DNA of 64,000 bases from Deltaproteobacteria bacterium (GTDB taxonomy: Bacteria; UBA10199; JACPAL01; JAHFST01), in NCBI GenBank assembly GCA_023265625.1, contig JAHFST010000002.1, forward strand, positions 62,001-126,000, in the 5' to 3' direction. The notes under the pieces are model-generated. The model searched no databases and was not told the DNA's origin. It was given only the letters and a program-made list of their open reading frames with translations. Numbering within the stretch: position 1 is the stretch's first letter; each line of letters starts with the position of its first letter. This document shows, one piece after another, positions 40,732 to 60,624 of this stretch. The position numbers were made by a program, and so were the translations under genes.

Positions 40732-41175
40732 ATGGCTAAAATTGCAACGAGTCCTTTTCTCGAAAGACTACGGGCCTTTAGGAAAAAAGCGGGGCTGAAT
40801 CAGCAGGAAGTGGCCAAACATCTGGGGCTAAATCAGGCGACCTATTCGGCCATGGAGCGCGGAAGTCAGAAGATTTTCACCGAGTACCTGCCGAAAATCG
40901 CTAAGGCCATCGGCATCCAGGTCTGGCAGCTTTTCGCCGATCCGGAGGAAACCGGAGCGCTCGACGATCAAACGAGGAAGCTTTTGGAAATGTGGGGGCA
41001 TTTCGACGCGTCGGAAAAGGGAGTCATCATGGCGATGGCGGAGCAGATCTGCAAAAAGAAGGACCTCGAATTGCACGATCCCAACACCGAATGCGATGCC
41101 GATCGTGATGCCACCCCTGATAATAAAAAATCTCAAGCGGACAAAGGCGGGAAAAAAGTTGCGCAGACTGGATAA
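40732..41175 (+). CDS. XRE-family regulator, CI-like repressor
   Basis: A 147-aa protein with an N-terminal helix-turn-helix (FRKKAGLNQQEVAKHLGLNQ, then ATYSAMERGS) and a helical C-terminal part ending in a charged tail. It lacks the LexA/CI peptidase domain, so release from lysogeny would not use RecA-aided self-cleavage. It is divergent from the Cro-like gene. ATG 40732 has GGTGA upstream; an ATG at 40720 is possible. It is the only plus-strand gene of the phage core. Confidence 0.8.
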   Translation: MAKIATSPFLERLRAFRKKAGLNQQEVAKHLGLNQATYSAMERGSQKIFTEYLPKIAKAIGIQVWQLFADPEETGALDDQTRKLLEMWGHFDASEKGVIMAMAEQICKKKDLELHDPNTECDADRDATPDNKKSQADKGGKKVAQTG

Positions 41176-42582: not shown

Positions 42583-44332
42583 AGATAGGATGCCATTTGG
42601 GTATGTGGTCGCTATCGATGGCAGCCGCGTCACCTTGAATTTACGGGATGAGCATAAGGGACACTACGTCTCCCACAGATATGGTGTTGTGCCAGTAACG
42701 GATATCGGCAATCTCTTTGCCGTTGAATCCGGCCACCGTCTTTTGATTCTTAAGGTACAATCCTTATCATTTGCAGAACCACGAGAGGTCCATACTTCAA
42801 GAGATTTTACCGGAGCATTCAAGGACCCATTGAGAAATCTGGACGCTGTTGTGGTTGGCATCCTCCAACGACGCGGTGATCAACTCGAATTCATTGCTGA
42901 CTCTCTCGTTTCACCGTCCTTGGGCGGAGAGGCTTTTCCGCTTTTCGATCATGAAATGTCGGCCATCCTCAAAACAGTAACCTCAAGCAGCGAGAACATA
43001 AACATCGGCGAGGCGGTTCGCGGTGGTGGAAATGTTAATGTGGCTATCACAGATTTTCTCGCACGACATGTTGCCGTTCTTGGTAGCACCGGACAAGGTA
43101 AAAGCTGCTTTACAGCTGCGATTTTACAGCAATTGGTGAAATTTCCTCGTTCAAGAATTGTCGTCCTGGATGTGAATGGTGAATATCTTCAAGCTCTCGA
43201 ACCACACATAGGAAAAGACAAAATGAAAATAACGAGGCTTGGAGAATTATCCGGAGATAAAATCCCTTATTATGCTCTCGGCCGCCATGGTCTCGCTCGT
43301 CTTCTGATGCCAAGCGAAAAGACGCAAAGGCCCGCTCTTAATTTTGCGATCGAGAATTTACAATACCTTGAATGGATACCGGCCAAAAAGGGAGCTAAGT
43401 TGGCAGGTACGAGCTCAGACGCAATTTTATTTGATGATTGTCGTGGCGTCGGCGCTCAAGAGGCCGAACGAGCTATTAAGGCATTAAGGGAAAAATCTGG
43501 AATTCAAAACGCTACCAAATGGCCTTCTATGGCCGCATTGGCTGCCTTGGTTGCAGAAAGCTACTGCATCACGACTGGCAATAGAGGAACTGTTGAGCGA
43601 AATGGCTTTCAATATGGGAATGTTTCTCCATTGATCACAAGAATTCGGCGATTTATTGAGGATCCCCAATTCACTTCCGTTATTGGAGTTGATGGAGGCG
43701 ATCCTAAAGGCGGTAGACTTGATTGGCAAGCAGAGGGAGAGGCATTGATCGATAATTATTTTGGAAGCAAAAACAGTACATGGCAAATCCATATAGTTGA
43801 TTTGAGAAGTCTGGCCCATGACCTCATGCCATTTGTGCTTGGATCTCTTCTTGAATTATTAGCGTTTGAACTATTCCGTCGTGGGCAGGATGGCACTTAT
43901 CCCACCTTGCTTGTCCTAGAAGAAGCTCACCACTACCTACGCACCATCTCTGAGGCCGAGGAAGCCGGAAAAGACTCCTTGGCATATGAACGTCTTGCCA
44001 AAGAAGGTAGAAAATTTGGAATTTCACTATGGTTGAGCACGCAAAGACCTTCTGAACTTTCGACGACTGTCTTGGCCCAATGCGGTACATGGGTTGTTTT
44101 TCGCTTATCCTCTGATCAGGATCTGAAATATGTCGCAGCTGCAGCTGATTGGGTTGATAGACAGGAACTGAATCGGATTGCTGGTTTGCCTCGCAGACAA
44201 GCGATCGTTTTTGGAGCTGGAGTTTCCCTTCCCACAAGAATAATTGCACCGGAGGCAATCCCATGTCCGAAATCGGATGATGGTAAGTTTAATCAGTGGA
44301 TTCAAGTAGGTACAAATGTCACTCCCCAATGA
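42575..44332 (+). CDS. HerA-like ATPase, partner of SIR2
   Basis: A 585-aa HerA/FtsK-type ATPase. An N-terminal HAS-barrel (FGYVVAIDGSRVTLNLRDE) is followed by Walker A VLGSTGQGKSCFTAAILQQL, a Walker B VLEEAHHYL, KEGRKFGISLWLSTQRPSEL and a C-terminal arginine region. HerA hexamers form complexes with their nuclease or NADase partner. GTG 42575 is preceded by GGAGGG at 4 nt and overlaps the SIR2 stop; ATG 42563 and ATG 42590 are alternatives. Confidence 0.88.
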   Translation: MDRDRMPFGYVVAIDGSRVTLNLRDEHKGHYVSHRYGVVPVTDIGNLFAVESGHRLLILKVQSLSFAEPREVHTSRDFTGAFKDPLRNLDAVVVGILQRRGDQLEFIADSLVSPSLGGEAFPLFDHEMSAILKTVTSSSENINIGEAVRGGGNVNVAITDFLARHVAVLGSTGQGKSCFTAAILQQLVKFPRSRIVVLDVNGEYLQALEPHIGKDKMKITRLGELSGDKIPYYALGRHGLARLLMPSEKTQRPALNFAIENLQYLEWIPAKKGAKLAGTSSDAILFDDCRGVGAQEAERAIKALREKSGIQNATKWPSMAALAALVAESYCITTGNRGTVERNGFQYGNVSPLITRIRRFIEDPQFTSVIGVDGGDPKGGRLDWQAEGEALIDNYFGSKNSTWQIHIVDLRSLAHDLMPFVLGSLLELLAFELFRRGQDGTYPTLLVLEEAHHYLRTISEAEEAGKDSLAYERLAKEGRKFGISLWLSTQRPSELSTTVLAQCGTWVVFRLSSDQDLKYVAAAADWVDRQELNRIAGLPRRQAIVFGAGVSLPTRIIAPEAIPCPKSDDGKFNQWIQVGTNVTPQ

Positions 44333-45168: not shown

Positions 45169-45255
45169 ATGAGTGATTTCATTCTTGCCGGTATCGTTGC
45201 TGTGGGCGTGGTGATTTATCTCGCCTACACGTTGTTTAATCCGGAAAGATTTTAG
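45169..45255 (+). CDS. kdpF: KdpF, small subunit of the K+ ATPase
   Basis: A 28-aa protein with one membrane helix (LAGIVAVGVVIYLAYTLFNP), the classic KdpF form. It stabilises the KdpFABC complex in the inner membrane. AAGGAG lies 6 nt before the ATG, and kdpA begins 11 nt after the stop. Confidence 0.88.
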   Translation: MSDFILAGIVAVGVVIYLAYTLFNPERF

Positions 45256-45266
45256 GGGAAAAGATC

Positions 45267-46958
45267 ATGATATCCAACGACTGGGTTCAGATTGCCATCT
45301 ATATCATCGCCTTGGTGGCTATAACACCGCTTCTGGGCAGCTTTATGGCCAGGGTTTTTGAAGGCGAACATCATTTACTTTCTACGCCCTTGGGTTGGCT
45401 GGAGCGCGGCGTTTATCGTGCCTCGGGAATCGACGCCAAGGAAGAGATGGGTTGGAAGACTTATGCGTGGACGTTGTTAGCGTTCAATGTCTTGGGTTTT
45501 CTTACGGTCTTTCTCCTGCAAATCTTTCAGGCTTACTTGCCACTCAACCCGCAACAGATGCCGAATGTCTCATGGCATCTGGCCTTCAATACAGCCACGA
45601 GTTTCATGACCAACACAAATTGGCAGTCCTACGGCGGTGAATCCACCATGAGCTATCTCACCCAGATGCTGGGACTTGCTGTCCAGAATTTCGTAAGCGC
45701 AGCCACGGGAATTGCCGTCATGCTGGCAATTACGAGAGGCATCATGCGTCGATCTACAAATTCCATTGGAAATTTCTGGGTCGATCTTACTCGGTCAACC
45801 ATTTACGTCCTGTTGCCGCTTTCAATTATCCTGGCCCTTGCTTTAGTCAGCCAAGGAGTTGTTCAAACATTTTCTTCCTATGTTGAGGCGCATACTTTGG
45901 AAGGAGCCAAGCAAGTCATCGCCCTTGGACCTGCCGCTTCACAGATAGCCATCAAGCAGCTTGGCACCAATGGTGGCGGATTCTTCAACGTCAACAGCGC
46001 TCACCCTTTTGAAAACCCGACACCTATTTCAAACTGGTTGGAGATGTTTTCTATCCTGATGATTCCGGCGGCACTTACATACACCTATGGCCTCATGGTG
46101 AAATCGAGACGCCAGGGTTGGGTGCTCTTCATTGCTATGCTCCTTCTTTGGCTTGGAGGCCTCGCATTCTCCCTTTACGGTGAATATGCGACCAATCCCG
46201 TCTTTGGTACCAGTGCCATGATGGAGGGAAAAGAAACGCGCTTCGGAGTTGTTAACAGCATCCTATGGTCAGTCTCAACAACGGCCGCCTCGAACGGCTC
46301 GGTCAATGCCATGCATTCCAGTCTTTCTCCCATCGCGGGAGGCGTTGCGATGTTTAACATCATGCTGGGAGAAATTATTTTTGGAGGCGTCGGAGCTGGC
46401 CTTTACGGCATGCTGACCTTTGTCTTGATGACCGTTTTTCTAGCTGGCCTCATGGTAGGAAGGACCCCGGAATACCTGGGCAAAAAAATAGAAAAGTATG
46501 AAATTGCGATGATAATTGTAGCTATTCTATTACCCAGCATTTGTATTCTTGTTGGATCGGGAATCGCTTGTATCTTGCCCGCAGGGCTCTCTAGCCTTGC
46601 AAGTAAAGGTCCCCACGGCCTTTCGGAAATTCTTTATGCCTTTTCTTCTGCGGCTCAAAATAACGGAAGCGCCTTTGCCGGATTAAATGCCAATACGGTC
46701 TTTTATAACGTGCTCCTTGGCTTGTGTATGTGGGTCGGCCGCTTTGCGGTGATTTTTCCTATACTCGCAGTTGCCGGAAGCCTGGCGGCCAAAAAGTATG
46801 CTCCACCTTCCGAGGGGACATTCGAGACCGACAATTGGATCTTTCTCGTGCTGCTTTTAGCGGTGATCCTGATTGTGGGAGCGTTGACACATCTGCCCGC
46901 CTTGTCATTGGGACCGGTTATCGAGCATTTTCTTATGCTTCGCGGTGTTACTTTTTAA
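45267..46958 (+). CDS. kdpA: KdpA, potassium-binding channel subunit
   Basis: A 563-aa membrane protein of normal length. All four selectivity-filter loops are visible: MTNTNWQSYGGE, LGTNGGGFFNVNSAHPFENP, TTAASNGSVNAMH and AAQNNGSAFAGLNANT. KdpA selects K+ with high affinity and passes it to KdpB. It stands in the order kdpFABCDE as in free-living bacteria. Nothing indicates damage, so the pump should be functional. Confidence 0.97.
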   Translation: MISNDWVQIAIYIIALVAITPLLGSFMARVFEGEHHLLSTPLGWLERGVYRASGIDAKEEMGWKTYAWTLLAFNVLGFLTVFLLQIFQAYLPLNPQQMPNVSWHLAFNTATSFMTNTNWQSYGGESTMSYLTQMLGLAVQNFVSAATGIAVMLAITRGIMRRSTNSIGNFWVDLTRSTIYVLLPLSIILALALVSQGVVQTFSSYVEAHTLEGAKQVIALGPAASQIAIKQLGTNGGGFFNVNSAHPFENPTPISNWLEMFSILMIPAALTYTYGLMVKSRRQGWVLFIAMLLLWLGGLAFSLYGEYATNPVFGTSAMMEGKETRFGVVNSILWSVSTTAASNGSVNAMHSSLSPIAGGVAMFNIMLGEIIFGGVGAGLYGMLTFVLMTVFLAGLMVGRTPEYLGKKIEKYEIAMIIVAILLPSICILVGSGIACILPAGLSSLASKGPHGLSEILYAFSSAAQNNGSAFAGLNANTVFYNVLLGLCMWVGRFAVIFPILAVAGSLAAKKYAPPSEGTFETDNWIFLVLLLAVILIVGALTHLPALSLGPVIEHFLMLRGVTF

Positions 46959-46967
46959 GGAGATTTC

Positions 46968-49070
46968 ATGAATATCCAAAAGAAAAGCAAACAAGGATTG
47001 ATATCAAAAGAGATTTTTTTAACCGCTCTCAAGGATGCTTTTCGTAAATTTCATCCGAAACGGCAGATCAGGAATCCTGTTATTTTTGTGACGCTGATCG
47101 GAGCGCTCCTCACAACCTATAGCGCGGTTAAGACTCTATTTGAAGGCGGTGCGGTCTCGTTCGAGATTCAAATTGCGCTCTGGCTGTGGTTCACCGTTTA
47201 TTTTGCCAATTTCTCTGAAGCGGTGGCGGAAGGTCGTGGTAAGGCTCAAGCCGAAAGCCTTAAAAAATCACGAAGCTCCGTTATTGCAAGAAAATTGGTG
47301 GGAGGGCGTGAAGAGAAGATACCTTCTTCTCAACTCAAGGCGGGTGATACGGTTATTTGCGAGGCGGGCGATATCATTCCTGGTGATGGTGACGTCATTG
47401 AGGGAATTGCCAGCGTGGATGAATCGGCAATCACCGGTGAATCAGCGCCAGTAATCCGAGAATCCGGTGGCGACCGCTCTGCTGTGACCGGAGGGACGCG
47501 CGTTATTAGTGATCGAATAGTTATTAAGATCACCGCGCAACCCGGAGAGACTTTTTTGGATCGTATTATCCACCTGGTAGAGAACGCCTCCCGCCAGAAA
47601 ACTCCTAATGAGATTGCCTTAAGTGAGCTTCTCTCGGGTCTGACACTTTTGTTTGTCTTTTCCGTGGGGGTGATTAAATTCTATGCGGACTATTCAGCTT
47701 CTGCTTCGGGACAAAACATCTCCTATCTTGTCACTGTACCGATCTTAGTTTCTCTTTTCGTGTGTCTCATTCCTACAACCATCGGGGGCTTGCTCTCCGC
47801 CATCGGTATCAGCGGTATGGATCGATTGATCCGAAAGAACGTCATTGCCACAAGTGGACGTGCGGTGGAGGCAGCGGGCGATATCGATGTGCTTCTTCTG
47901 GATAAGACGGGAACCATCACACTGGGCAACCGTATGGCTACCGAATTCATTCCAGCCCCAGGGGTCACTGAAGAAAGACTGACCCGCATAGCTCAGATGG
48001 CCTCGCTTGCGGACGAAACACCGGAGGGCCGCTCGATCGTCATCTTAGCCAAACAAAAATTTAATTTTCGGAGTGAAACGCTGACTCCTCATCAGTCCCA
48101 TTTTGTTCCCTTCTCCGCTCAGACCCGTATGAGCGGGGTTGATGTGACCGAACCGGATGGTCGTGTACGTGTCCTGCGGAAAGGCGCTGATGATACGGTT
48201 CAAAGACATATAGCAACACTTGGGGGAGTCTATCCCCTGGAAGTCCGCAAGGCGGTCGAAGACATTGCGCGTAAGGGCGGAACACCGGTTGTCGTAGTTG
48301 AAGACAAAGAAGTTTTAGGGGCAATCTACCTGAAAGACGTCATCAAAGGGGGTATCCGCGAGCGGTTTGCTGAACTTCGAAAAATGGGGATCAAGACGGT
48401 GATGATCACGGGAGATAATCCGATGACGGCGGCCGCGATTGCTGCCGAAGCGGGAGTGGATGACTTCATCGCGCAAGCAACCCCTGAATCTAAGCTCGCC
48501 CGTATCCGAGAGGAACAGGCTCAAGGGCATCTTGTGGCAATGACGGGTGACGGGACAAATGACGCCCCGGCTCTCGCCCAAGCGGATGTAGGTGTCGCCA
48601 TGAACACTGGCACGCAGGCGGCGCGCGAGGCTGGAAATATGGTAGACTTGGATAGCAACCCGACCAAGCTGATTGAAATTGTCGAAACGGGAAAGCAACT
48701 CCTCATCACGCGGGGTGCACTCACTACTTTCAGTGTCTCCAACGACGTGGCCAAGTACTTCGCCATTTTGCCAGCGATGTTCGGTGGTCTCTATGCCGCC
48801 CAGGCTGGAGGACATGGCCCCTTGGCGGTTTTAAACGTGATGGGGCTTTATTCTCCCCAAAGCGCGATCTTGAGTGCCGTAATCTTCAATGCCTTGATCA
48901 TCATCGCCTTAGTCCCCCTTGCCTTAAAAGGGGTGGCTTACCGGGCCGTGGGAGCTTCAACCCTCCTCAAGAGAAATCTTTTGATCTATGGCTTGGGCGG
49001 CCTTGTTCTGCCTTTTATTGGAATCAAGCTGATTGATTTCCTAGTCGTCAGTTTGAAACTTGTCGTCTAA
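46968..49070 (+). CDS. kdpB: KdpB, P-type ATPase subunit
   Basis: A 700-aa P-type ATPase. The phosphorylation site is [14 protein letters not shown]. Other marks are [20 protein letters not shown] (actuator, TGES), [11 protein letters not shown] (nucleotide site) and [20 protein letters not shown] (hinge). KdpB hydrolyses ATP to drive K+ uptake through KdpA. AAGGAG precedes the ATG, and kdpC begins 14 nt after the stop. Confidence 0.97.
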
Positions 49071-49084
49071 AATGAGGGACGTTT

Positions 49085-49639
49085 ATGAAAACATGGATTA
49101 CGGGATTGCGAGTGCTACTTGTCTTGACTGTCTTAACAGGAGGAGTTTATCCCATCCTCGTGACAGGACTTGCCAAGTTAGCCTGGCCCTTTAAAGCAAG
49201 CGGAAGCTTTGTAGAAAAAAATGGTGAAATCAAAGGCTCTCTCCTGATTGCGCAGAAGTTTGAGAAGGAAAGCTATTTCTGGCCCAGACCCTCCTCTGTG
49301 GATTACAATGCGGCCGCATCCGGAGGCAGCAATTTAGGCCCGACAAGCGCGGACCTCCAAAAGAATTATCAGGAAAGAGCAAAAGCGGGCTTATCCAACG
49401 ATTTCCTTTTTTCTTCAGGCAGCGGTCTGGATCCGCACATCTCACCACAAGCTGCACGGATTCAGATGGACCGAGTCGTTTCGGCCAGAGGATTTACGGT
49501 CGCCCAGAGAAATGATCTAACAAAGATCGTGGATGAATCGATTGAGGACCGTGATTTCGGATTTTTGGGCGAGCCACGTGTGAATGTTTTAAAACTCAAT
49601 CTTGAGATGGATCATCATTTTTTGAATAAGGAACCTTAA
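49085..49639 (+). CDS. kdpC: KdpC, accessory subunit of the K+ ATPase
   Basis: A 184-aa protein with one N-terminal membrane helix (LRVLLVLTVLTGGVYPILVT) and the KdpC marks YFWPRPSSVDYNAAASGGSN, SGSGLDPHISPQAA and RVNVLKLNL. It helps K+ or nucleotide binding in the KdpFABC complex. kdpD starts 6 nt after its stop. Confidence 0.96.
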   Translation: MKTWITGLRVLLVLTVLTGGVYPILVTGLAKLAWPFKASGSFVEKNGEIKGSLLIAQKFEKESYFWPRPSSVDYNAAASGGSNLGPTSADLQKNYQERAKAGLSNDFLFSSGSGLDPHISPQAARIQMDRVVSARGFTVAQRNDLTKIVDESIEDRDFGFLGEPRVNVLKLNLEMDHHFLNKEP

Positions 49640-49645
49640 AAACGC

Positions 49646-52318
49646 ATGGAAGAAACCCGTCTTAATCCAGATGCCATATTAGCACGCATCGTCAGCGCGG
49701 AAAGTAAAAGCAAGCGAGGACGTTTTCGTCTTTTTTTCGGCATGGCGGCTGGAGTTGGCAAAACCTACGAGATGCTCAAAGCGGCCCATGAACGCCTTAA
49801 AGAGGGAGTGGATGTCTGGATCGGTGTAATTGAGACCCATAGTCGGCCTGAAACAGAAAAACTGATTGAAGGCATCCCCATTATCCCTAAGAAAAAAATT
49901 GAGTATAGAGGCACCATCCAAGAAGAAATGGATCTGGACGCCATTTTGGAAAAGAAGCCCCAGCTTGTCCTAGTGGATGAACTTGCCCACACCAACATCC
50001 CTGGAACCCGCCATGAGAAACGCTACCAAGACGTCATCGAGATTCTTGAAGCAGGCATTGACGTATATTCCACCATGAATGTGCAACATTTGGAAAGCCG
50101 ATCGGATATCGTCGCTCTGATCACAGCGGTGAACGTTAGAGAAACCGTACCCGATTCCATTCTCGACCTCGCTGACCAGATCGAGGTCATCGATATCACC
50201 CCCAACGAGCTTCTGAACCGACTCAAAGAAGGAAAGGTCTATCCCGGAAGAAAGACCGAACAGGCGCTTCAATACTTCTTTCAAGAGGGCAATTTAAGCG
50301 CTCTCCGGGAAATCGCCTTAAGAGTGACCGCGGACAAGGTGGAAAGGGATATGAGAGATTCCCGCTCCACCGATATATCTATCAGCGGTGGTTCTGAGAA
50401 GCTGCTTGTCGCCATTAGCCACAGTCCGTTTTCTGAAAAGCTGATCCGAACAGCTAGAAGAATCGTTGAAGATTTGGAAATGCCCTGGGTGGCCGTGCAT
50501 GTGGACACAGAAAAGGTATTAAGCTCCGAGGACCATAACCAACTTGTTAAAAACCTCGACCTCGCAAAAGAAATGGGGGCGGAAACCGTCACCCTTCATG
50601 GAACCGATATCGCGGAAGCGATCAGCCGTTACGTCAAAGAGCATAAAGTGGTTCAAGTGATCTTGGGGCGACCGCATCATCGCGGAGGATGGTGGTCAAA
50701 GCCAGCGCGCTATATCGAAGAACTGATCAAAAAAAATCCGGATGTCGATATCACTATTTTAAAACAACCAAAAGACGAATTACGAAAAGACCGGAAAAAA
50801 GTGAAATTTAAATTCGAGTTTCGTATCACGGGTTTTGCAAAAGCGACCTTTTGGGTTTTGGCAACAGCCGTGGTCAATCATTTTCTGGATGCTTATATCG
50901 GATACAGGGCCGTCGGTTTTTTATTCCTGCTGCTTGTGGTTGTGTTGAGCCTTTTTCTTCCCTTCACATCCGTACTGATCGCGGCCACATTCTCGGCCCT
51001 TATCTGGAATTATTTTTTCATTCCTCCCCAGGGAACATTCTCCATCAACGCCCCGGAAGACGCGATGATGTTTTTAGCCTATTTTGTCATTGCCTGCACA
51101 AGCGGATTCCTCACTTTTCAAGTCAAAAGGAACCAGAAGATTCTTAAGGACCGGGAGGAAAAGACCCAGGCTCTTTATGACATTTTAAAGTCAATGACCC
51201 TGGTGCAAGGCACGAAACCTTTGGTGGATCTTGCTCTGGTGAAAATAGAAAATATCTTCAATGCCGAGTGTTGTATCCTGCTGACGCGGGAGGAGAAGCT
51301 GTCACCTCAGCCCGATTTTGGTAAATTGGTTCTGACTGAAAATGACCATGCCGTTGCCGCATGGAGTTACGCTCACGGCCGCAAGGCGGGCTGGTCCACC
51401 GACACTCTTCCTCTTTCTCAGGTCCTGTGCCTGGCACTCAAATCGGGTGAGGTCAAATTCGGTGTTCTTATCTTAAAGCCGAAGATTGATAAAAAGCTAA
51501 ATCCGGAACAGGAAAATCTCCTCATCAGCATCGCCAATCAGATCGGCATTGTTCTGGCAAAACAGAAATATGACGAAGAAAACAGGGAAGCTAAATTATT
51601 TAAGGAGTCGGAGAAGCTTCACCAGACTCTCCTCAACTGCGTTTCTCATGAACTCCGCACTCCTTTAACATCTATCATGGGAGCGGCAACGGCACTGCAG
51701 TCGCAAGTGAAAAACGATAAAACATCTTCGCCTCTTCGGGTTCTTTCCGAGGAGATTGTCTCCGCCTCGGAAAGACTCAACCACGTATTTGAAAATCTCC
51801 TGGATGTAACCCGGCTTGAGGCGGGCGCGGTAAAGCTCAAACAGGAGTGGTTTGATCTTTCGGAGCTTGTGCGCTTCGTCATGGATCGACAAAAGAGGCT
51901 CCTTGCCAATCATGAAATCAAACTGCATATCCCCGCCGAGTCTCTTTATTTTTTCGGTGATTTTGATCTCCTGGCCCATGCGGTATCAAACCTTCTTTTG
52001 AACGCCGCAAATTACTCTCCACAAAAGAGCACCATTGTCGTAAACGTCAGGAAAATGAACAAGGAATTGATGATCGAAATATCAGACCAAGGCCCCGGAA
52101 TTCCCGAAGCGCATATCTCTCATATTTTTGAGAAATTCTACCGTTTACCTGGCACCCCTACTGGCGGATTGGGCTTGGGTCTTTCAATTACCAAAAACCT
52201 GATCGAGCTCCAGGGTGGTAAGATTGAAGTCAGGAACAACGCGGGAGGCGGAACAACTTTTACGGTGATCCTCCCGCATGTGGATCCGCCCCCACAGATT
52301 CAGGAGCCTATTTCGTGA
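49646..52318 (+). CDS. kdpD: KdpD, K+-sensing histidine kinase
   Basis: An 890-aa sensor kinase. The N-terminal KdpD domain has Walker A GMAAGVGKTYEMLKAAHERL and VDELAHTNIPGTRHEKRYQD. A Usp domain follows (about 248-375), then four membrane helices, a GAF-like region, and the kinase with phospho-acceptor His668 (VSHELRTPLTSIMG) and GGLGLGLSITKNLIELQGGK. It phosphorylates KdpE when K+ is scarce. It overlaps kdpE by 4 nt (GTGA). The EIIA-Ntr gene at the operon end is a likely partner. Confidence 0.97.
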   Translation: MEETRLNPDAILARIVSAESKSKRGRFRLFFGMAAGVGKTYEMLKAAHERLKEGVDVWIGVIETHSRPETEKLIEGIPIIPKKKIEYRGTIQEEMDLDAILEKKPQLVLVDELAHTNIPGTRHEKRYQDVIEILEAGIDVYSTMNVQHLESRSDIVALITAVNVRETVPDSILDLADQIEVIDITPNELLNRLKEGKVYPGRKTEQALQYFFQEGNLSALREIALRVTADKVERDMRDSRSTDISISGGSEKLLVAISHSPFSEKLIRTARRIVEDLEMPWVAVHVDTEKVLSSEDHNQLVKNLDLAKEMGAETVTLHGTDIAEAISRYVKEHKVVQVILGRPHHRGGWWSKPARYIEELIKKNPDVDITILKQPKDELRKDRKKVKFKFEFRITGFAKATFWVLATAVVNHFLDAYIGYRAVGFLFLLLVVVLSLFLPFTSVLIAATFSALIWNYFFIPPQGTFSINAPEDAMMFLAYFVIACTSGFLTFQVKRNQKILKDREEKTQALYDILKSMTLVQGTKPLVDLALVKIENIFNAECCILLTREEKLSPQPDFGKLVLTENDHAVAAWSYAHGRKAGWSTDTLPLSQVLCLALKSGEVKFGVLILKPKIDKKLNPEQENLLISIANQIGIVLAKQKYDEENREAKLFKESEKLHQTLLNCVSHELRTPLTSIMGAATALQSQVKNDKTSSPLRVLSEEIVSASERLNHVFENLLDVTRLEAGAVKLKQEWFDLSELVRFVMDRQKRLLANHEIKLHIPAESLYFFGDFDLLAHAVSNLLLNAANYSPQKSTIVVNVRKMNKELMIEISDQGPGIPEAHISHIFEKFYRLPGTPTGGLGLGLSITKNLIELQGGKIEVRNNAGGGTTFTVILPHVDPPPQIQEPIS

Positions 52319-53007
52319 AACAGAATCGAAAAATTCTTGTGATTGATGATGAAGCCGCTATCCGTAAATTCTTAAGGGTTAGCCTGGAGAACGATGGCTA
52401 TTCGGTTTTCGAAGCAGCCACCGGAAAAGACGGCATCCGCGAATGCACCGCTTCAAGACCTGATCTTGTTATTCTAGACCTTGGGCTTCCGGATATGGAT
52501 GGACACGAGGTGATCCGTAAAGTTCGTGAATGGTCCAAGGTACCGATTATCGTGCTTACCGTTAAAGAAGACGAGGAGAGTAAGGTAAAGGTACTGGATG
52601 CCGGAGCGGACGACTATCTCACGAAGCCCTTCAGTGTTCCTGAATTGACAGCCCGGATCCGTGTCGCCGAGCGGCATTCACTTCCGACTAATCTCAATGA
52701 AACCTCCTTCAAATCCGGTCGTCTTGAAGTGGATCTTGCCGGCCGAATCGTGAAGGTATCCGGAAAAGAAACTCATTTGACGGCAACCGAGTACGACATC
52801 TTAAAGCTTTTGATCAAGCATGCTGGCAAAGTGGTCACGCAAAGGCAGATTCTGCAGGAGATCTGGGGGCCTAACTCGGTGGAGCACACTCAATATCTCA
52901 GGGTCTATCTCGGCCATTTAAGGAAAAAAATCGAGTCCGATTCGAACTCCGAAAAACTTATCATCACCGAACCCGGTGTTGGATACCGATTATTAATTCT
53001 GGAATAA
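52315..53007 (+). CDS. kdpE: KdpE, response regulator of kdp
   Basis: A 230-aa OmpR-type regulator. The receiver has the acidic pair at 11-12, Asp55 in LVILDLGLPDMDG and LTKPFSV. The winged-helix domain has HLTATEYDILKLLIKHAGKV and YLRVYLGHLRKKIE. Phosphorylated KdpE activates the kdp promoter, which should lie before the 57-aa leader gene. The start is GTG, overlapping kdpD. Confidence 0.96.
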   Translation: MKQNRKILVIDDEAAIRKFLRVSLENDGYSVFEAATGKDGIRECTASRPDLVILDLGLPDMDGHEVIRKVREWSKVPIIVLTVKEDEESKVKVLDAGADDYLTKPFSVPELTARIRVAERHSLPTNLNETSFKSGRLEVDLAGRIVKVSGKETHLTATEYDILKLLIKHAGKVVTQRQILQEIWGPNSVEHTQYLRVYLGHLRKKIESDSNSEKLIITEPGVGYRLLILE

Positions 53008-53020
53008 GGAGTTCGATTGG

Positions 53021-53485
53021 ATGAAGATCAAAAAAATTCTTTCTGAAGAGTGTATTTTAGACAACCTTAAGGCTACCTCGAAGTATGAAGTGATTGCCGA
53101 ACTTGCCGCCCCTCTTATTCAAAAATATAAGGATCTGGATCCCGAAGAAGTGGTCAAGGTTCTCCTTGATCGGGAAGAGCTCGGGAGCACTGGCATTGGC
53201 GAGGGTGTCGCTATTCCTCATGGGAAGTTGAAATCCTCTCAACAGGTCATTGCCGTATTCGGTCGCAGTATCACGGGGGTTCCTTTTAATTGCCATGATG
53301 ATAAACTTGCACATTTCTTTTTAGTTCTTCTCGCTCCCGAAAGCATGACGGGTCATCATCTACAAATTCTTGCCCGCCTCTCGAAAATTTTTAAGGGGTC
53401 TCATTTTCGGAGCAAACTTTTGAAGGCTAAGACAGCATTAGAGATTTACGATAACATTATCACCGAAGATGAAAAGCTGTTGTGA
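53021..53485 (+). CDS. PTS EIIA-Ntr (PtsN-like) protein
   Basis: A 154-aa EIIA of the nitrogen-type phosphotransferase system. It has the active His67 in GEGVAIPHGKLKSS, FGRSITGVPFNCHDDKLAHF and FLVLLAPESMTGHHLQILA. In E. coli, dephosphorylated EIIA-Ntr binds KdpD and raises kdp expression. Its place as last gene of this kdp operon suggests that it is a dedicated modulator. No EI-Ntr or NPr gene is present, so the host would have to supply phosphate. Its stop lies 4 bp from the remnant terminase stop. Confidence 0.92.
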   Translation: MKIKKILSEECILDNLKATSKYEVIAELAAPLIQKYKDLDPEEVVKVLLDREELGSTGIGEGVAIPHGKLKSSQQVIAVFGRSITGVPFNCHDDKLAHFFLVLLAPESMTGHHLQILARLSKIFKGSHFRSKLLKAKTALEIYDNIITEDEKLL

Positions 53486-53489
53486 GATC

Positions 53490-53640
53490 TCATCCCAGCC
53501 AAACCGGGTAGTCTCTCTCTTGCACTATTTGATGCACGTATCTTCCGATCCCCAGAGCGATCACCAGGTCATTATGTTTGCCGCTCCGGATCTCGACGTA
53601 GTTTGGAAAGTGGATTTCCGTATCGGGGAATGGTAGGACC
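53490..53640 (-). pseudogene. 3' remnant of a second terminase large-subunit gene
   Basis: The minus strand encodes a C-terminus SGKHNDLVIALGIGRYV followed by YPVWLG and a TGA stop. The intact terminase gene ends SGKHDDLVIALGIGRYV followed by WPVWLG and TGA. DNA around the stop is also alike (GGATGAGAT in both). Upstream of the match the remnant continues for about 20 residues (LPFPDTEIHFPNYVEIR) that differ from the intact copy. The rest of the gene is gone; the frame then runs antisense into the RegB-like start. Confidence 0.85.
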
Positions 53641-53649
53641 CGGACCAGG

Positions 53650-54903
53650 ATGTCCGTCACCGACGAAAAACTCAAAAACCTGATTTGGCTTCGCTGGATA
53701 GCTTTCGTGGCGATTCTTCTCGTGTTGTCCGGTGCGAGATGGATTGCAGGCGTGTTCCCGATTAATCCCATCAGCTTCTGGATGACCGCCGCCTACGGTT
53801 TTTCCAATCTGCTCCTTGTTGTCGTTAGCAAGAAAATCACGCACCGCTTCATGGACCTCATTCTCCTTGTGGTTCTTTTATTGGACACTGCTTTTCTCAC
53901 AGCGCTTCTCGAGTTAAACGGTGGATCCAATAATCCGTTTTCCATCCTGTTCCTTGCCATCGCCAGTGTTGGGGCACTGCTATTGTCCTCGCGGTCCATG
54001 ATGCTGTTGATTCTAACGAGTCTAATCGGTCTCTGGATTGTCTATTCCGAGGTGCCCAGATCAACGGAGCACATGCACCACATGGCCAGTTACCCATTCC
54101 ATCTGAAAGGTATGTGGCTTGCAAATTCACTCGGTGTCCTCCTGGTGTGTGGGTGGATACACTATCTTCGGCGTATGAACGAACGAATGGCTACGCGCCA
54201 CGAGAAGACGCAGAAGATTCTTGCGGATATAGAACGTGTCGAATCGATGGGACGTGTTGTGGCCCAAGCCGCCCACCAGATGAACACTCCTCTGGGCACC
54301 TTACAGCTTGGGCTTTCAGAGATTGGGGATAAGCAGAACCCCGTTCCCCCAGTGGAACACGATCGTTGGATTACTGACATGCAGCATGCTGTGGATCAGA
54401 TTACCAACATCATTTCACGAATCAGACCCGAATTAAAACCTACAGATGAGTCCGACACTGAGTCAGTTGATTTTGACGGCTTGATTAAAGAATGGGTGTC
54501 CCACTGGGCCAAGCCCCGAAAAATCGACATAACTGTTGAATGCCATCATCAGCCGTTTCAAGTCTCCGCCATGTTTGTAACAGAGGACGTCGGAGGTGTT
54601 TTGACATCTCTTTTGGATAATGCTTTTGACGCCATCAACGGGGGCCAAGCAAGAATCGGCATCCAAATCTCAGAAACCAACGAATTTTTGGAAGTCTCCG
54701 TTGATGACTCCGGAATGGGCATGGATGATGAGACCAGGAAGCACGCGTTGGATCCCCTGTTTACCACAAAATCAAAAGGCACTGGGCTTGGCTTGTATGT
54801 TTGCCATCAGGTTGCGAGAAAATATGATGGTGAGGTCCGGATTGAATCCGAGCTTGGCAAAGGAACACGAGTTTCAATCACTTTCAGGAAAGATAAATTG
54901 TGA
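53650..54903 (+). CDS. RegB/PrrB/ActS-like redox sensor kinase
   Basis: A 417-aa membrane kinase with about six N-terminal helices. The loop GGSNNPF (residues 91-97) matches the quinone-binding heptad of RegB. The kinase part has His209 in AAHQMNTPLGTL, DNAFDAINGG, DDSGMGMDDE and KSKGTGLGLYVCHQVARKYD. RegB-type kinases read the quinone pool and control respiration and electron-transport genes. It overlaps the RegA-like gene by 4 nt. Its upstream DNA is the terminase remnant, so it may lack its own native promoter. Confidence 0.9.
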   Translation: MSVTDEKLKNLIWLRWIAFVAILLVLSGARWIAGVFPINPISFWMTAAYGFSNLLLVVVSKKITHRFMDLILLVVLLLDTAFLTALLELNGGSNNPFSILFLAIASVGALLLSSRSMMLLILTSLIGLWIVYSEVPRSTEHMHHMASYPFHLKGMWLANSLGVLLVCGWIHYLRRMNERMATRHEKTQKILADIERVESMGRVVAQAAHQMNTPLGTLQLGLSEIGDKQNPVPPVEHDRWITDMQHAVDQITNIISRIRPELKPTDESDTESVDFDGLIKEWVSHWAKPRKIDITVECHHQPFQVSAMFVTEDVGGVLTSLLDNAFDAINGGQARIGIQISETNEFLEVSVDDSGMGMDDETRKHALDPLFTTKSKGTGLGLYVCHQVARKYDGEVRIESELGKGTRVSITFRKDKL

Positions 54904-55397
54904 AAAAACTTCTCGTCATTGAAGATGATGCAACATTCGCCACAGGCCTCGTCCGTTCGCTATCGAGGCGCGGTTATTCCTGTGCTATCGCCGGCACGAT
55001 TGCAGAGGCGCGTGAACTTGCCGAATCATTCCATCCTGAGCATATCTTGCTGGATCTGAACCTCGGAAAGGAAAACACTCAGAGCTTCATCCCCACATTG
55101 CGCACCTTGTGTCCGACGGCCTCGATCGTTGTCTTGACCGGTTACGGAACTATCCCGTCCGCAGTAGCAGCTATCAAGGATGGTGCGGACTCCTATCTCA
55201 CCAAACCGGCTACCCCCGAATCTATCGAACGGGCCGTGTCCGAGAGAAAACCAGCCTCCAACCATACCCCTTTGTGGGATATGGAAAATGAACACATCAT
55301 CAAGGTCTTGAGCGAATGCGGGGGCAATATTTCCCAGGCAGCCAAAAAGTTGGGATTGCATCGTCGCACATTACAACGACGGCTCAAAAAAACCTAA
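54900..55397 (+). CDS. RegA/PrrA/ActR-like response regulator
   Basis: A 165-aa regulator with receiver Asp52 (ILLDLNLG), LTGYGTIPSAVAAIKDGADS and YLTKP, plus a C-terminal Fis-type helix-turn-helix (GGNISQAAKKLGLHRRTLQR). This short two-domain build without an AAA+ part is typical of RegA. It starts at GTG within the kinase stop. It probably controls the three envelope genes downstream; a GC-rich palindrome lies just past its stop. Confidence 0.92.
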   Translation: MKKLLVIEDDATFATGLVRSLSRRGYSCAIAGTIAEARELAESFHPEHILLDLNLGKENTQSFIPTLRTLCPTASIVVLTGYGTIPSAVAAIKDGADSYLTKPATPESIERAVSERKPASNHTPLWDMENEHIIKVLSECGGNISQAAKKLGLHRRTLQRRLKKT

Positions 55398-55403
55398 ACT
55401 GAC

Positions 55404-55420
55404 TGCGGCAAGTCGCCGCA
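55404..55420. promoter_or_regulatory. GC-rich palindrome, possible RegA-type site
   Basis: TGCGGC-AAGTC-GCCGCA is a perfect inverted repeat between the RegA-like gene and the outer-membrane protein gene, 55 bp before its ATG. RegA-family regulators bind GC-rich half-sites of the GCGRC/GNCGC kind, so autoregulated control of the downstream genes is possible. Confidence 0.4.
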
Positions 55421-55475
55421 CCGCGCGACCTTTCACCTAATTGTCATTATTCGCACAGCGAAATAGAGCACGCAT

Positions 55476-56327
55476 ATGCGATTTCTATATGTATCGGTGT
55501 GTGTCACGATCTTGAGTTTTAATTTTTGGATCCAGCCTATTTTTGCCCATCATGTTGTTGGGCACGGTGGCGTGACAACGAGTTCCTTCAATCCTTATTC
55601 ATCACAGTCACGGCCACCGGAGACATTTCTTGATTTCAACTTCAACGTTGATCATCTGGACGGAGGATTGGGCTATGTTCTTACCTATCAGTTCGCTGGT
55701 GAATATTCCGTAACCCGAAGGATCAGCGTGGGAGGTCGTATTCCCGTCCTGTCAGTCAGGGAACAATTTCTCCCGCACACCGATGGCATTGGCGATGTCG
55801 CCATTTTCTTCAAAGGGCTCGTAGGAGAATGGCCTTTGTATCGGACATTTTTGAATATGGGTACGGAGATTTCATTCCCTACCGGAAGCGAAACCAGGGG
55901 AACAGGCACGGGAGATGTCATATTTTCTCCTTATCTTACAGTGTCCAAGGGTTTTCGGCCCTTTTCCATTCTATTCTCCGTCGGTTCTACATTAGCCGCA
56001 GCGGATCAGATTCGGCCATCTATTGACTATGGGGCGTCTCTCATTGTGCCTGTGGCGAAAGGTTCATTACCTGTGGATGCCTTTTTGTCGTTTCAAGGTT
56101 CAACGGCAACCTCGAGCAAGACATTTGTCAATGGTTCCACCAAAGCTTATTTAAAACCAGCCGTCACATTCCATCTCAAACCAAAATTGCTGGCAACGCT
56201 GGGAGCTAAAATCTCAATAATTGACACGTTAAGAGTTAAACCCGGAATCGCATTATCCCGCCAATCGACGGCTCCCTTGAGTGACGTCGATGTGGGGTGC
56301 GTATTCGATATCAACTATTCATTTTAG
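55476..56327 (+). CDS. Outer-membrane beta-barrel protein
   Basis: A 283-aa exported protein with a signal peptide ending near PIFAHH. Many amphipathic strands follow (YVLTYQFAGEYSVTRRISVG, TFLNMGTEISFPTGS) and it ends with a terminal aromatic residue (NINYSF-like end, actual DINYSF), as barrels do. It resembles transporter-like outer-membrane proteins (PF13557-type). The His-rich start (HHVVGHGG) could bind metal. The substrate is unknown. It is the first of three envelope genes after the RegBA pair. Confidence 0.75.
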   Translation: MRFLYVSVCVTILSFNFWIQPIFAHHVVGHGGVTTSSFNPYSSQSRPPETFLDFNFNVDHLDGGLGYVLTYQFAGEYSVTRRISVGGRIPVLSVREQFLPHTDGIGDVAIFFKGLVGEWPLYRTFLNMGTEISFPTGSETRGTGTGDVIFSPYLTVSKGFRPFSILFSVGSTLAAADQIRPSIDYGASLIVPVAKGSLPVDAFLSFQGSTATSSKTFVNGSTKAYLKPAVTFHLKPKLLATLGAKISIIDTLRVKPGIALSRQSTAPLSDVDVGCVFDINYSF

Positions 56328-56336
56328 GAGGAAAAT

Positions 56337-57182
56337 ATGGGCAAAAAACTACAATCCATCATGGTCTCGCTATCGCTGGCATTTCTCGCTGCCTGCAATA
56401 ACGGATCCCTCTTCGAGGGAAATCCCGCTGGCAGCATCAATCCACCAGAGGGAAAACTCTTTGCGCAGGTACGAGTCGAAAGTACCCAGGATCTCTCCCA
56501 GAGCTTCATGGGAGGAAAAGACAGAACCAACAATGTGGAAGACGTTTATGAAATTCATGTGGATGAAGCAGCCCTTATTCTGGGACACCTTTCTTTTGAG
56601 ACTTCAATCCCCGAAGAAGCCGCGGCCTTGGGCGTGATCAAATTTCATGCCGGAGAAGATCATTCAGGCGGGGTCGAATCTGTCAGCGGCGAAGAATCGC
56701 ATGATGAGCCGACATCCTGCAATTTTGAAAACACTTTTTCATCTTTCCAACATGTAGATCTCAAGGAAGGTGCCGATTTACCGTGTGTGACTTTAAATGA
56801 AGGCACTTATGCGGGACTAAAACTTTTAATGCAGCATGCATCTGGCGAAGAAGAGGTTCTGGATCTTCCTGAAGGTTCGACAGCATCAATCATCCTTACG
56901 GGAACGGCCAGCAAGGATGGCGTAAACTACCCTTTTCAGGTCCAAGCCGAGGCCGATCAAGAGATGACGGTTGCTGCGGAAACGGAGTTTTCACTTAATG
57001 ACGAAACCCATCACATCACGCTCGGCTTTGACGTAAAGAGTTGGTTTCATGGCGTGGATTTCTCTCAGTTGGAGATGGTGGATGGTGTGGTTGTCTTCAG
57101 CGAAGATCACAATAGCCAGCGCTTTGAACACATGGTTTTTGATCATGTGCCCGGCGCCATGAGTCTTGCCGTGGGTGATTAA
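56337..57182 (+). CDS. Unrecognised lipoprotein
   Basis: A 281-aa lipoprotein: a signal peptide with lipobox LAAC, then an acidic, His-rich body (HAGEDHSGGV, GEESHDEP) and beta-rich segments (ALILGHLSFET, GTYAGLKLLM). The build recalls DUF4382-like lipoproteins, but I am not sure of the family. A GGAGG site precedes the ATG, and it begins 9 nt after the barrel gene. The cluster suggests a shared periplasmic role under RegBA control. Confidence 0.7.
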   Translation: MGKKLQSIMVSLSLAFLAACNNGSLFEGNPAGSINPPEGKLFAQVRVESTQDLSQSFMGGKDRTNNVEDVYEIHVDEAALILGHLSFETSIPEEAAALGVIKFHAGEDHSGGVESVSGEESHDEPTSCNFENTFSSFQHVDLKEGADLPCVTLNEGTYAGLKLLMQHASGEEEVLDLPEGSTASIILTGTASKDGVNYPFQVQAEADQEMTVAAETEFSLNDETHHITLGFDVKSWFHGVDFSQLEMVDGVVVFSEDHNSQRFEHMVFDHVPGAMSLAVGD

Positions 57183-57236
57183 CCGACAAGATCGTATCTC
57201 TCACAGAACGTAGGGCCTTTATTGAGGAACTTCTCT

Positions 57237-58037
57237 ATGAAATACAGATGGGTATTTTTAACGATCTTTCTCATGCTTCCATTAAATATTCTAGCCTATC
57301 CCAACGGCACGCCTCATTACGTGACTGACGTTGCACCTTTCTGCGCTGCCTGTCATTCTTCACTTCAGAGGGAAACGATGCGGGGAATGGGCTCAGGTAT
57401 GGCCGAGGGAGAACTGGCTGTTTACAAACATTTGTTAGCGATTAAAGAACGTCGGGAAGCTTATAAAGGAATGAGCCCGGAGGATTCTAAAAAGCTTCTT
57501 GAGTATGTTCAGATGATTGATCAGCACACGCACGTAAGCTTGGACGCTCCCAGTCAGGCCATGGTTAACGGCGAGGTGGAAGTTATCGCACAGTTTGAAG
57601 GCGGTTCCGGTCCGGTTATCGGTTTGATGCTTCTCGACAACAATCTTCGATGGGAGTCCCGTTCTCTCGCAGCAGATGGTTGGCTAATCCTTGATGCGCC
57701 GAAAGTAATCGGACCGGACGGCAAGACACAGATGAAATTCTTGGATCACCGCACCAAGGGTCTGGCGAAGAACTTGAGTTACGTCATAGTAGATGGAATC
57801 GCAGCGGATCTAGAAAAGAAGACCTTCAGCAGCGGAAGTGTAACCTGGAGATTGAAAGCGCCACGTGATCCGGGGACCTATACCTTAGCAATCGCCATAC
57901 TGTACGGAACTGAAAAAGCGACGGTGCTAGGTCGAGGGCAAACAATGGAAGGAATCGGACAACTTCCTCGCGGAGGATTCGAGGGACATTCCGGAAGAAT
58001 TCTATTTAGCGGGGTACAGACGATTCGAGTGCACTAA
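57237..58037 (+). CDS. Exported protein with one CxxCH haem motif
   Basis: A 266-aa protein with a signal peptide (YRWVFLTIFLMLPLNILAYP), then DVAPFCAACHSSLQRE, a single c-type haem motif soon after the signal. The rest (about 110-266) is beta-rich and Ig-like, with SGSVTWRLKAPRDPGTYTLA. It could be a mono-haem cytochrome tied to a carbohydrate- or copper-type binding domain. I chose ATG 57237 because GAGG lies 9 nt upstream. It ends the redox cargo and converges on the terminase gene. Confidence 0.72.
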   Translation: MKYRWVFLTIFLMLPLNILAYPNGTPHYVTDVAPFCAACHSSLQRETMRGMGSGMAEGELAVYKHLLAIKERREAYKGMSPEDSKKLLEYVQMIDQHTHVSLDAPSQAMVNGEVEVIAQFEGGSGPVIGLMLLDNNLRWESRSLAADGWLILDAPKVIGPDGKTQMKFLDHRTKGLAKNLSYVIVDGIAADLEKKTFSSGSVTWRLKAPRDPGTYTLAIAILYGTEKATVLGRGQTMEGIGQLPRGGFEGHSGRILFSGVQTIRVH

Positions 58038-58061
58038 CTCCGCCTTTGCGAGATGAAAATC

Positions 58062-59498
58062 TCATCCTAACCACACTGGCCAACTGATATCCTGATTCTT
58101 TGAATGATTCCTGACGTATCTCCCGATTCCCAGGGCGATCACCAGGTCGTCGTGCTTGCCGCTCTGGGCCTCGGCCTTGCCCGATCGGGACCAGCAGAAA
58201 TTCAGAAGCTCGTTGACGGTGCGGATTCCTTGGACGCCGCCAACCCCCTCCCGCAGGCTCTTGTCCAGCTCGTCGATCAAAAGCGGCCGTGTCAAGGAAT
58301 TGGTCGGAAAGCCGGGCTCGGTTCTTCCCGGTTTGAGCGGATTCACGTACTCATAGATGCGCGGATAATCGTGGTGCTGAAAAAACAGAGTCGTGGCGAT
58401 GCCCATGTTGTTGTTTTCGATGGCGGCGAGAGCATTGTTGTATTCGGCTCCCAGTTCGAGGATTTTATGGTTGAAGACATCCAACGAAATACGTGTGCGA
58501 TATTCCGCCACCTGTTTGCCAGTGTGACGTTCCAAAATATGCGCCGCATGATAATCGCCAGCGCCTCCCTTGGCGGGGTCCACGGAGAGGATGTAATCGG
58601 TCTTGGCCTTCGGTTTCTCGAAAATATACTGCCCGCAGGGAAAGTCCTGGTCCTGTTCGTCGGTAAAGCGCGTTTCGATCGGTACGATCATCGAACATTC
58701 TTCCTGCAATGCTCGCAGGGCCGCGACGTCGAACACGAGGTTGCCTGTGGTTACGAAGTCGCCGTACACTTCCTGCGCCAGCTGCGAGGCGCTCATGTTG
58801 GCCTTCTGAATGGCAAGCCAGCCCTGCGTCCGTTCGGGGTGGTACCACCAATGGACCCGGACCGGATTGAAAAGGCTCTTGCCCTCCAGCGAACGGCTCC
58901 AAAGCTCGTAGTAAAAATTATCCATGCCATTCGGGGTACTCAGGATGATCGCCGAGCCGCCCGTGCTGAGTGTGGGAAAAGAAGCCTGCCAGATGTCTTC
59001 GATCCAACGGACGAATGCTGCTTCGTCGATGATGAGCAGCGAGAGCGATTCGGAACGACCGGCTTCTTCCGATGTCGGAACCGATTCGATTTCGCTTCCG
59101 GTCACGAACGACATCTTCGACATGTTGTCATCGACGAGTTCCGCCTGCAGGAATGGTGGAAGATGGCTGTAGAGGTAACGTACCTTCTTGAGAAGCGCCT
59201 TGGCCGTGGCGTCCTTGATGGAGATCATCAAAATTTTCTTTTCCTCGAAGAAAAGGCACATCCACAGAGCATAGCCCGCCACGAGCCAGCTCAGGCCCAT
59301 CTGGCGACTTTTGAGGATGATGTTGAAGCTATTCTTGAGAAACTGGGCGCATGTGATTTCCTGAAAGCGGTATAGACGGAATGGAACCTTACCTCGAATG
59401 GGGTCGCGCAAAAAACCGTAGGTGTTGATGAAGTACGCCGGAGACTGTCGGCATCTGAGAATCTCCTGAAATTCGGCCTGTGTCAGACATCGATTCAT
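58062..59498 (-). CDS. Terminase large subunit
   Basis: A 478-aa phage packaging motor. The ATPase has the Walker A-like ILKSRQMGLSWLVAGYALW and Walker B LLIIDEAAFV. The nuclease domain has ILSVDPAKGGAGDYHA, AAIENNNMGIA and the final acidic site SGKHDDLVIALG. It cuts concatemeric DNA and pumps it into proheads. It appears complete. It is the last gene of the leftward late operon, with no portal gene after it; redox cargo on the opposite strand begins 24 bp past its stop. Confidence 0.92.
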   Translation of the reverse strand: MNRCLTQAEFQEILRCRQSPAYFINTYGFLRDPIRGKVPFRLYRFQEITCAQFLKNSFNIILKSRQMGLSWLVAGYALWMCLFFEEKKILMISIKDATAKALLKKVRYLYSHLPPFLQAELVDDNMSKMSFVTGSEIESVPTSEEAGRSESLSLLIIDEAAFVRWIEDIWQASFPTLSTGGSAIILSTPNGMDNFYYELWSRSLEGKSLFNPVRVHWWYHPERTQGWLAIQKANMSASQLAQEVYGDFVTTGNLVFDVAALRALQEECSMIVPIETRFTDEQDQDFPCGQYIFEKPKAKTDYILSVDPAKGGAGDYHAAHILERHTGKQVAEYRTRISLDVFNHKILELGAEYNNALAAIENNNMGIATTLFFQHHDYPRIYEYVNPLKPGRTEPGFPTNSLTRPLLIDELDKSLREGVGGVQGIRTVNELLNFCWSRSGKAEAQSGKHDDLVIALGIGRYVRNHSKNQDISWPVWLG

Positions 59499-59504: not shown

Positions 59505-60242
59505 TCATTTCCTCAAGGGTTCCAGTTCCTCGAAGCCCGAGTTCGGATTGTGTCCAACAGGGGTCGAAAAGTTCGAGTCCTGTCGGGGTAGGATCGGTTC
59601 GGCCTTGGTTTCGATCACCCGAATGGCGGCTGTATAATCGAGATACCGAACCCCTGTTTCGGTATCGGGGAGGTCCTCAATCGGGAGATGCCCTTTGCCG
59701 CCGGAGAAAAGGCTCAAGAATTGATTCATGGCGCTGGAGGTCTGGGACATGACCCGGATGCTATCGGTCCTCAGCCCGTTCAAGGCTCTGACATGGGCCA
59801 TCAGGCTCTCGAGAATGTGCCGCTTGCGATTGTATTCGGTATAGGTGCCCTCGGACATCTCCCAGGCGGTGTCGTACATTTTCGATGTTTTCTCGATCTG
59901 CTTGTCCAATTGGTCGGTGTGAAGGACCGCCCGTGCGCGATCTTCCCGTAACTGGTGCATCAAGGTCGCGGCCATGACGAACACTCGGTCACGGATGATG
60001 CTTTGGTTCTCGAACATTTTTATAAATTTTTTCTCGATTCCCTCGAGAAGCTTCAGGATCATGTATTCTGAGACGCCAATACGACGACCGAGGTCCTCGC
60101 GGCTCAAACGTTCGCCATTCAACACGCCACCGCTGCAATGCCATGAGATGATCATGTCTTCCTTGTACTTCACACCCAATTGCCTCACGAGAACCTCATC
60201 GGCTCCCTTGGCTTTAGTTCTTTTGCGTTTCCTTGCTGCCAT
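59505..60242 (-). CDS. Terminase small-subunit-like DNA-binding protein
   Basis: A 245-aa protein with a helix-turn-helix in its first third (LSREDLGRRIGVSEYMILKL), a long helical middle (RARAVLHTDQLDKQIEKTSK) and a polar tail. Position directly before the large subunit and this build point to the small terminase, which recognises the packaging site. ATG 60242 (MAARKRKRTK) gives a basic start; the frame stays open 45 nt further. It overlaps the Mor-like gene by 29 bp. Confidence 0.75.
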   Translation of the reverse strand: MAARKRKRTKAKGADEVLVRQLGVKYKEDMIISWHCSGGVLNGERLSREDLGRRIGVSEYMILKLLEGIEKKFIKMFENQSIIRDRVFVMAATLMHQLREDRARAVLHTDQLDKQIEKTSKMYDTAWEMSEGTYTEYNRKRHILESLMAHVRALNGLRTDSIRVMSQTSSAMNQFLSLFSGGKGHLPIEDLPDTETGVRYLDYTAAIRVIETKAEPILPRQDSNFSTPVGHNPNSGFEELEPLRK

Positions 60243-60624
60243 GAACAGGGTTCCTTCTGGTTGTGATGTGAACGGGATCCATCGCACGCAGTTCCTGCAG
60301 GTGCTGCAGGATTTTTGGATATTCGCGGTGCATTTTCTTGTAGACGGCGCGGATCCAGACGTCGGTCACGTCGTATTTGTCGGCCAGGAATTGCAATGTC
60401 TCATGGCCCTGCGAATACGAGAGCGACAGGAAGACATCGATATTGCGCTTGAGATCGTTGATCTCCTTCATGGATGGAATGGAAATTTTCATGCCGCCGA
60501 AAACCAGCACCAGTTTGAGTGTTTCTTCTTCGCCCAGGAGATCGTACATTTCCGGCAGCAAGGTATCGCGATACAGATAGAAAATGAGTTCCTTCAGGCC
60601 CAACTCAGGAAATTTTGACTCCAT
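60214..60624 (-). CDS. Mor-like transcription activator
   Basis: A 136-aa protein. The first half, MYDLLGEEETLKLVLVFGG followed by KISIP, matches the Mor-family dimer domain (E-x-x-L-K-L and FGG-x-x-x-x-IP). The second half, LQFLADKYDVTDVWIRAVYK, is a helix-turn-helix. Mor of phage Mu activates the middle operon. ATG 60624 has GGAGG at 5 nt; the frame stays open far upstream over the sigma gene, which I take as chance. Confidence 0.8.
   Translation of the reverse strand: MESKFPELGLKELIFYLYRDTLLPEMYDLLGEEETLKLVLVFGGMKISIPSMKEINDLKRNIDVFLSLSYSQGHETLQFLADKYDVTDVWIRAVYKKMHREYPKILQHLQELRAMDPVHITTRRNPVHGSKETQKN

Follow-up and report, generated by a model that had tools for sequence, protein, structure and literature searches.

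A terminase 3'-end remnant between two cargo blocks of a temperate prophage, probably a recombination scar of stepwise cargo accretion

How did the 3' end of a phage terminase gene (terL) come to lie alone between two blocks of non-phage genes, with an intact terL on the far side of the second block? We addressed this question in a window of 64,000 nucleotides, positions 62001-126000 of a 289-kb contig from a 2.93-Mb genome (G000). Unprefixed coordinates refer to the window, L004 coordinates to the G000 DNA to its right, and G010, G020 and G039 to other genomes; our sample of the class comprises 46 genomes, and the lineage is sparsely sampled. The initial annotation had read the terL 3' end as a reusable dock for cargo.

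Both cargo blocks lie inside one temperate myovirus prophage of ~58 kb, integrated in tRNA-Glu. Its left part, in which the integrase and early genes span 33.8-41 kb, is arranged as follows.

33812 to 33885, plus strand: tRNA-Glu(TTC), whose 3' end is attL (attR candidate at L004:8089)
33847 to 35655, minus strand: large serine integrase whose open reading frame runs into tRNA-Glu (Pfam Resolvase/Recombinase; phrog_95)
35888 to 40599, minus strand: early region with DnaC-like and DnaD-like helicase loaders, exonucleases, a RecT-like protein and an HTH regulator (PHROGs)
38964 to 39857, minus strand: the RecT-like annealing protein of this region (PHROGs)
40720 to 41175, plus strand: phage-type repressor, the start of the rightward lysogeny and cargo side (PHROGs)
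41308 to 44332, plus strand: SIR2-HerA defence pair next to the repressor (strong PADLOC matches; Pfam)

The late operon occupies 32 kb and runs leftward, from L004:~7745 back to 58062, with terL as its last gene. Beyond the window it encodes tail, capsid, portal and TerS proteins, an AbiE pair and methyltransferases; the part within the window comprises two features.

58062 to 59498, minus strand: intact terL (T4 gp17-like), last gene of the late operon (profile matches in Pfam and PHROGs; comparison with distant phage TerLs)
59505 to 64000, minus strand: distal late operon, with an unknown gene (59505-60287), a Mor-like regulator, and sigma-like, HU-like and endolysin genes (PHROGs/Pfam)

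The attR candidate in G000 is a weak 9-bp copy of the tRNA-Glu 3' end (TGGGGACGC). In G010, a genome of the same class and another family, the late operon is collinear with ours, with 91-96% identity along most of it and 83% at the methyltransferase end, and the right end of the phage carries an 18-bp copy of the genome's own tRNA-Glu 3' end (GACTCCCGTTGGGGACGC, C16:~31540-31557), less than 300 bp from the point where phage homology ends. Because the integrase sits at tRNA-Glu and the late half ends at a tRNA-Glu copy in G010, the early and late halves belong to one prophage. An integrase beside the tRNA, a tRNA 3' copy at the far end and a full phage gene set (terL, TerS, portal, capsid, sheath, tape measure, baseplate and endolysin) place the element among temperate Caudoviricetes. 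The initial annotation was thus right to call it temperate, and also to propose a RecE/RecT-like pair, since a RecT-like protein and an exonuclease are paired in the early region.

A second serine integrase (L004:8010-9536) lies just past attR, its last codons overlapping att. The 3' end of this gene recurs as an inverted copy (FRLAAKTLHFDYSLPWRLLAATAPVINWR) at ~L004:9700-9800; together they suggest repeated use of the tRNA-Glu site. We considered this recombinase as the integrase of the phage itself, in which case the prophage would end at terL, and rejected it: the G010 homology stops before it, and the entire element lies between the two 3' copies of tRNA-Glu.

The position of terL within the late operon is unusual. 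It lies ~26 kb from the portal gene, which is preceded by TerS and the AbiE pair. The AbiEi/AbiEii genes (L004:3151-5842) hold the usual place of terL between TerS and portal; since the pair is a different one in G010 and a broken one occupies the same spot in G020, the late operon has a variable defence spot here. In the distant phages MT121964 and MT835790, whose TerL and portal proteins are 36-37% and 32-33% identical to those described here, the portal gene follows terL by 15-116 bp, whereas here terL closes the late operon. The arrangement that the initial annotation had named as contrary to a dock, portal directly after terL, therefore does occur, but in relatives only 36-38% alike. Scans of viral and genome collections with the TerL protein returned no close relative, and a degenerate DNA pattern for DDLVIALGIG matched only distant TerLs, or unrelated sequence in genomes. 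Given its place at the far end of the operon, terL naturally faces an accessory region with its 3' side, and it is this convergent gap that the two cargo blocks fill.

45169 to 53485, plus strand: block 1, kdpF-kdpA-kdpB-kdpC-kdpD-kdpE and a PtsN-like EIIA gene (NCBIfam; kdpF by eye)
45169 to 45255, plus strand: kdpF (read by eye)
53021 to 53485, plus strand: PtsN-like EIIA, last gene of block 1 (NCBIfam)
53490 to ~53606, minus strand: 3' remnant of an older terL allele, comprising the last ~36 residues and the stop codon (sequence match to intact TerL)
53650 to 58037, plus strand: block 2, the redox block, five genes in 4.4 kb (Pfam/NCBIfam)

Block 1 thus places a complete kdp operon, including sensor, regulator and EIIA genes, inside a prophage. 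Kdp operons are present in several other genomes of the class, and in G039 kdpA-E is likewise followed by EIIA (identity 73% for kdpA, 63% for kdpD, 77% for kdpE and 49% for EIIA). Matches to kdpA in phage records fall mostly on short entries without annotation, and we gave them no weight. PMC9239096 describes a link between PtsN and KdpD, and on that account the operon is functionally coherent. Block 2 encodes a RegB/PrrB-like kinase followed by a RegA/PrrA-like regulator, labels that denote similarity only because the scores are below the curated NCBIfam cut-offs. Its other products are a 283-aa predicted exported protein, a 281-aa lipoprotein-like protein (also predicted to be exported) and, last, a cytochrome-like protein of 271 aa with one CxxCH motif, which has no relative among the 46 genomes of the class. 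We found no recombinase, integrase or transposase among these five genes (53.65-58.04 kb), and neither Tn7-type transposition genes in the block nor a target duplication at its ends. Promoter and terminator consensus sites over 52.9-58.2 kb were not more frequent than in shuffled sequence.

Both blocks are foreign in composition, with GC and GC3 below those of phage and chromosome alike. Their GC content is 46-49% and their GC3 39-57%, compared with 53-54% and 67-69% for the phage and a GC of 53% for the chromosome, which bears out their earlier reading as foreign cargo. With its complete Kdp operon and regulators and its RegBA-like block, the prophage carries probable lysogenic-conversion cargo, which may act through potassium scavenging and redox-responsive regulation.

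We next consider the remnant between the blocks. Its stop codon (53490-53492, minus strand) is separated by 4 bp from the EIIA stop at 53485, and 24 bp lie between the end of the cytochrome-like gene at 58037 and the stop codon of the intact terL, which starts at 58062; both distances agree with those reported initially. A search of the whole G000 genome with the TerL protein matched exactly two places, the intact gene and the remnant, the latter 67-69% identical to TerL residues 442-478 (genome-wide E=1.4e-6). Within the window the remnant scored 48.5 bits, against 18.5 bits for the next best, unrelated match. The remnant is a real end of terL, not the unrelated coding end that the initial annotation had set against its own reading.

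The stretch shared with the intact gene extends from about ...SGKHNDLVIALGIGRYV... to PVWLG-stop and a few bases beyond. When aligned with the intact gene and with distant TerLs, the homology begins near residue 440 and includes SGKH(N/D)DLVIALGIGRYV. Upstream of residue ~440 no common sequence was detected between remnant and terL in any frame, and the frame there reads ILVRVLPFPDTEIHFPNYVEI, which is unrelated to TerL. The alignment thus agrees with the initial description of common C-terminal residues and common DNA around the stop with different sequence upstream. Since the homology is limited to the part from residue ~440 through the stop and a few bases, the detectable remnant measures ~103-117 bp; the terL end is real, but its earlier extent of 53490-53640 was too long.

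The two copies are not recent duplicates of each other. The alignment of 22 codons contains 14 differences, of which 8 fall at third positions, and 16 of 17 core residues are identical. At the DNA level the match is ~82% over 60 bp, with codon-like differences, and the longest exact match (14 bp) lies inside the diverged coding match. Third positions hold most of the differences, and therefore the copies are two terL alleles that diverged while functional. Judged from these alignments, the remnant is a genuine C-terminal tail of an old terL allele and not a fresh copy.

These properties bear directly on the proposed dock, in which cargo would insert site-specifically at the terL 3' end and bring a replacement end that displaces the old one. 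Such insertion would account for a redox block flanked by two terL 3' ends in the same orientation, and a separate piece of the same terL region does occur alone in G020. However, the block carries no integrase or transposase, and when the junctions were aligned to the base, as the initial annotation had envisaged, they showed old alleles with third-position differences in place of a short exact core. We found no exact repeat at the cargo/terL joints, and no direct repeat of at least 7 bp connects the two ends of the redox block, apart from the terL coding end itself. In 770 genome look-ups that included all 46 genomes of the class, the G020 piece was the one other near-identical terL sequence found, and it is internal, without tail and stop. 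Without recombinase, exact core or junction repeat, a reusable dock is highly improbable.

Instead, ordinary recombination in the accessory gap of a mosaic temperate phage probably left the remnant as a scar while morons accreted successively and the terL allele was swapped. The bases before the redox block share no homology with the terL side, so, with nothing common upstream of residue ~440 either, the joint shows no homology. The scar reading is supported by this joint, by the uniqueness of the remnant in the genome, by the divergence of the alleles, by the foreign composition of the blocks, by the lack of a recombinase, by the prophage limits at tRNA-Glu and by G010, which has the collinear late operon but no DNA match to 41.2-58.1 kb. 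The scar would have arisen as follows. The phage genome would tolerate foreign rightward genes (morons) between the repressor and the terL end, and in an ancestor the kdp block may already have lain directly against the older terL stop. The RegB/RegA block would have arrived afterwards on a segment with a terL and late genes of its own after the block, and a crossover would have fused the leader of this segment to the 3' end of the older terL. The body of the old terL would have been lost while its last ~115 bp stayed, presumably because such a tail is harmless in a convergent intergenic spot. The RecT-like protein and exonuclease could have promoted this crossover, for which neither junction homology nor site specificity would be needed. 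Accretion in at least two steps, one of which swapped the terL allele, is the best-supported history; from this one genome, the kdp block would have come first and the redox block second.

Two points count against the scar reading. The block ends, 4 and 24 bp from terL stops, would be a neat coincidence, and a dock would give the same picture. In addition, no empty or alternative junction was found: the G010 contig C16 starts 34 bp inside terL (window 59465), and the stretch from tRNA-Glu to terL is unassembled in that genome. Searches of G010 and G020 for the early phage genes gave no match. The G010 contig with tRNA-Glu (C12) breaks off after 175 bp of prophage sequence; a candidate for the left half of the G010 prophage, contig C11, was rejected as a different element. 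A viral contig (L043), if collinear, would end just short of terL. Assembly breaks cluster around terL, possibly owing to strain variation or shared sequence.

The other readings concern the history of the region. The remnant could be the left end of an older prophage of the same family, separate or in tandem and since mostly deleted, with the redox block arriving with the present phage. Reuse of the tRNA-Glu site, to which the second integrase and the inverted copy of its end point, fits this history, as does the orientation of the remnant, which is that of the present terL. Yet no other gene remnant lies beside the terL remnant, and the kdp block is bounded on its left by the early genes of the same prophage, which makes an older prophage unlikely; it would differ from the scar reading mainly in history and not in mechanism. 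We regard as very unlikely that two prophages enclose kdp and redox genes native to the chromosome, or that the arrangement is a chimera of binning or assembly. The kdp operons of other genomes in the class would be in keeping with a chromosomal origin, whereas the composition of the blocks is unlike that of the chromosome, the contig is unbroken over 289 kb, and the early and late genes complete each other as halves of a single phage and, given the tRNA-Glu 3' copy at the end of the G010 late half, share one site.

The terL piece of G020 (G020:C10, L018:10326-10598) is the one other near-identical piece found. It is 257 bp long, 96% identical to the window terL in a 263-bp match (residues ~381-467), and lies between chromosomal genes, upstream of gapA. 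An exact 8-bp direct repeat (GTTGTCGG) bounds it, and a repeat so close to both ends occurred in 7 of 17,850 background placements on the same contig. No transposase or terminal inverted repeat was seen at the piece, which looks like an inserted terL fragment, as if with target duplication. Its repeat, and its lack of the terL tail and stop, led us to discard the idea of a second orphan 3' end with a swapped tail. It is very doubtful that in this phage family the terL region acts recurrently as a recombination joint, with packaging or processing ends at terL preferentially joined to foreign DNA. Such a joint would lead to both the stacked cargo by terL in G000 and the free terL piece with its 8-bp repeat in G020 and, if true, would tie packaging to cargo capture.

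Among known systems, the locus most resembles phage morons and mosaic junctions, a general concept treated in PMC3029335. As in morons, extra genes of different composition lie between modules of one phage, with no detectable homology at the boundaries. What differs here is the large size of the cargo, with its complete kdpFABCDE-ptsN-like operon and RegBA-like block, and a scar in which the 3' end of a packaging gene can still be recognised. Integrative elements that displace the 3' ends of tRNA or protein genes similarly leave two gene 3' ends in the same orientation around a block, but the block here has neither an integrase nor an exact core repeat, and its copies are old alleles. The prophage Rac encodes RecET. 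It also carries potassium uptake, as does the prophage described here: trkG, a low-GC potassium-uptake gene, lies inside this cryptic prophage in E. coli K-12 (PMC9898762). That gene is for a Trk-type transporter, whereas here a full Kdp operon with sensor, regulator and EIIA is present. The locus offers an example, at base resolution, of how cargo accretes stepwise in a prophage, here from a lineage that is sparsely sampled.

Elsewhere in the window, a single open reading frame of 3789 aa (3454-14823) resembles a fatty acid synthase of type I, and a phosphopantetheinyl transferase-like open reading frame (14834-15238) adjoins it.
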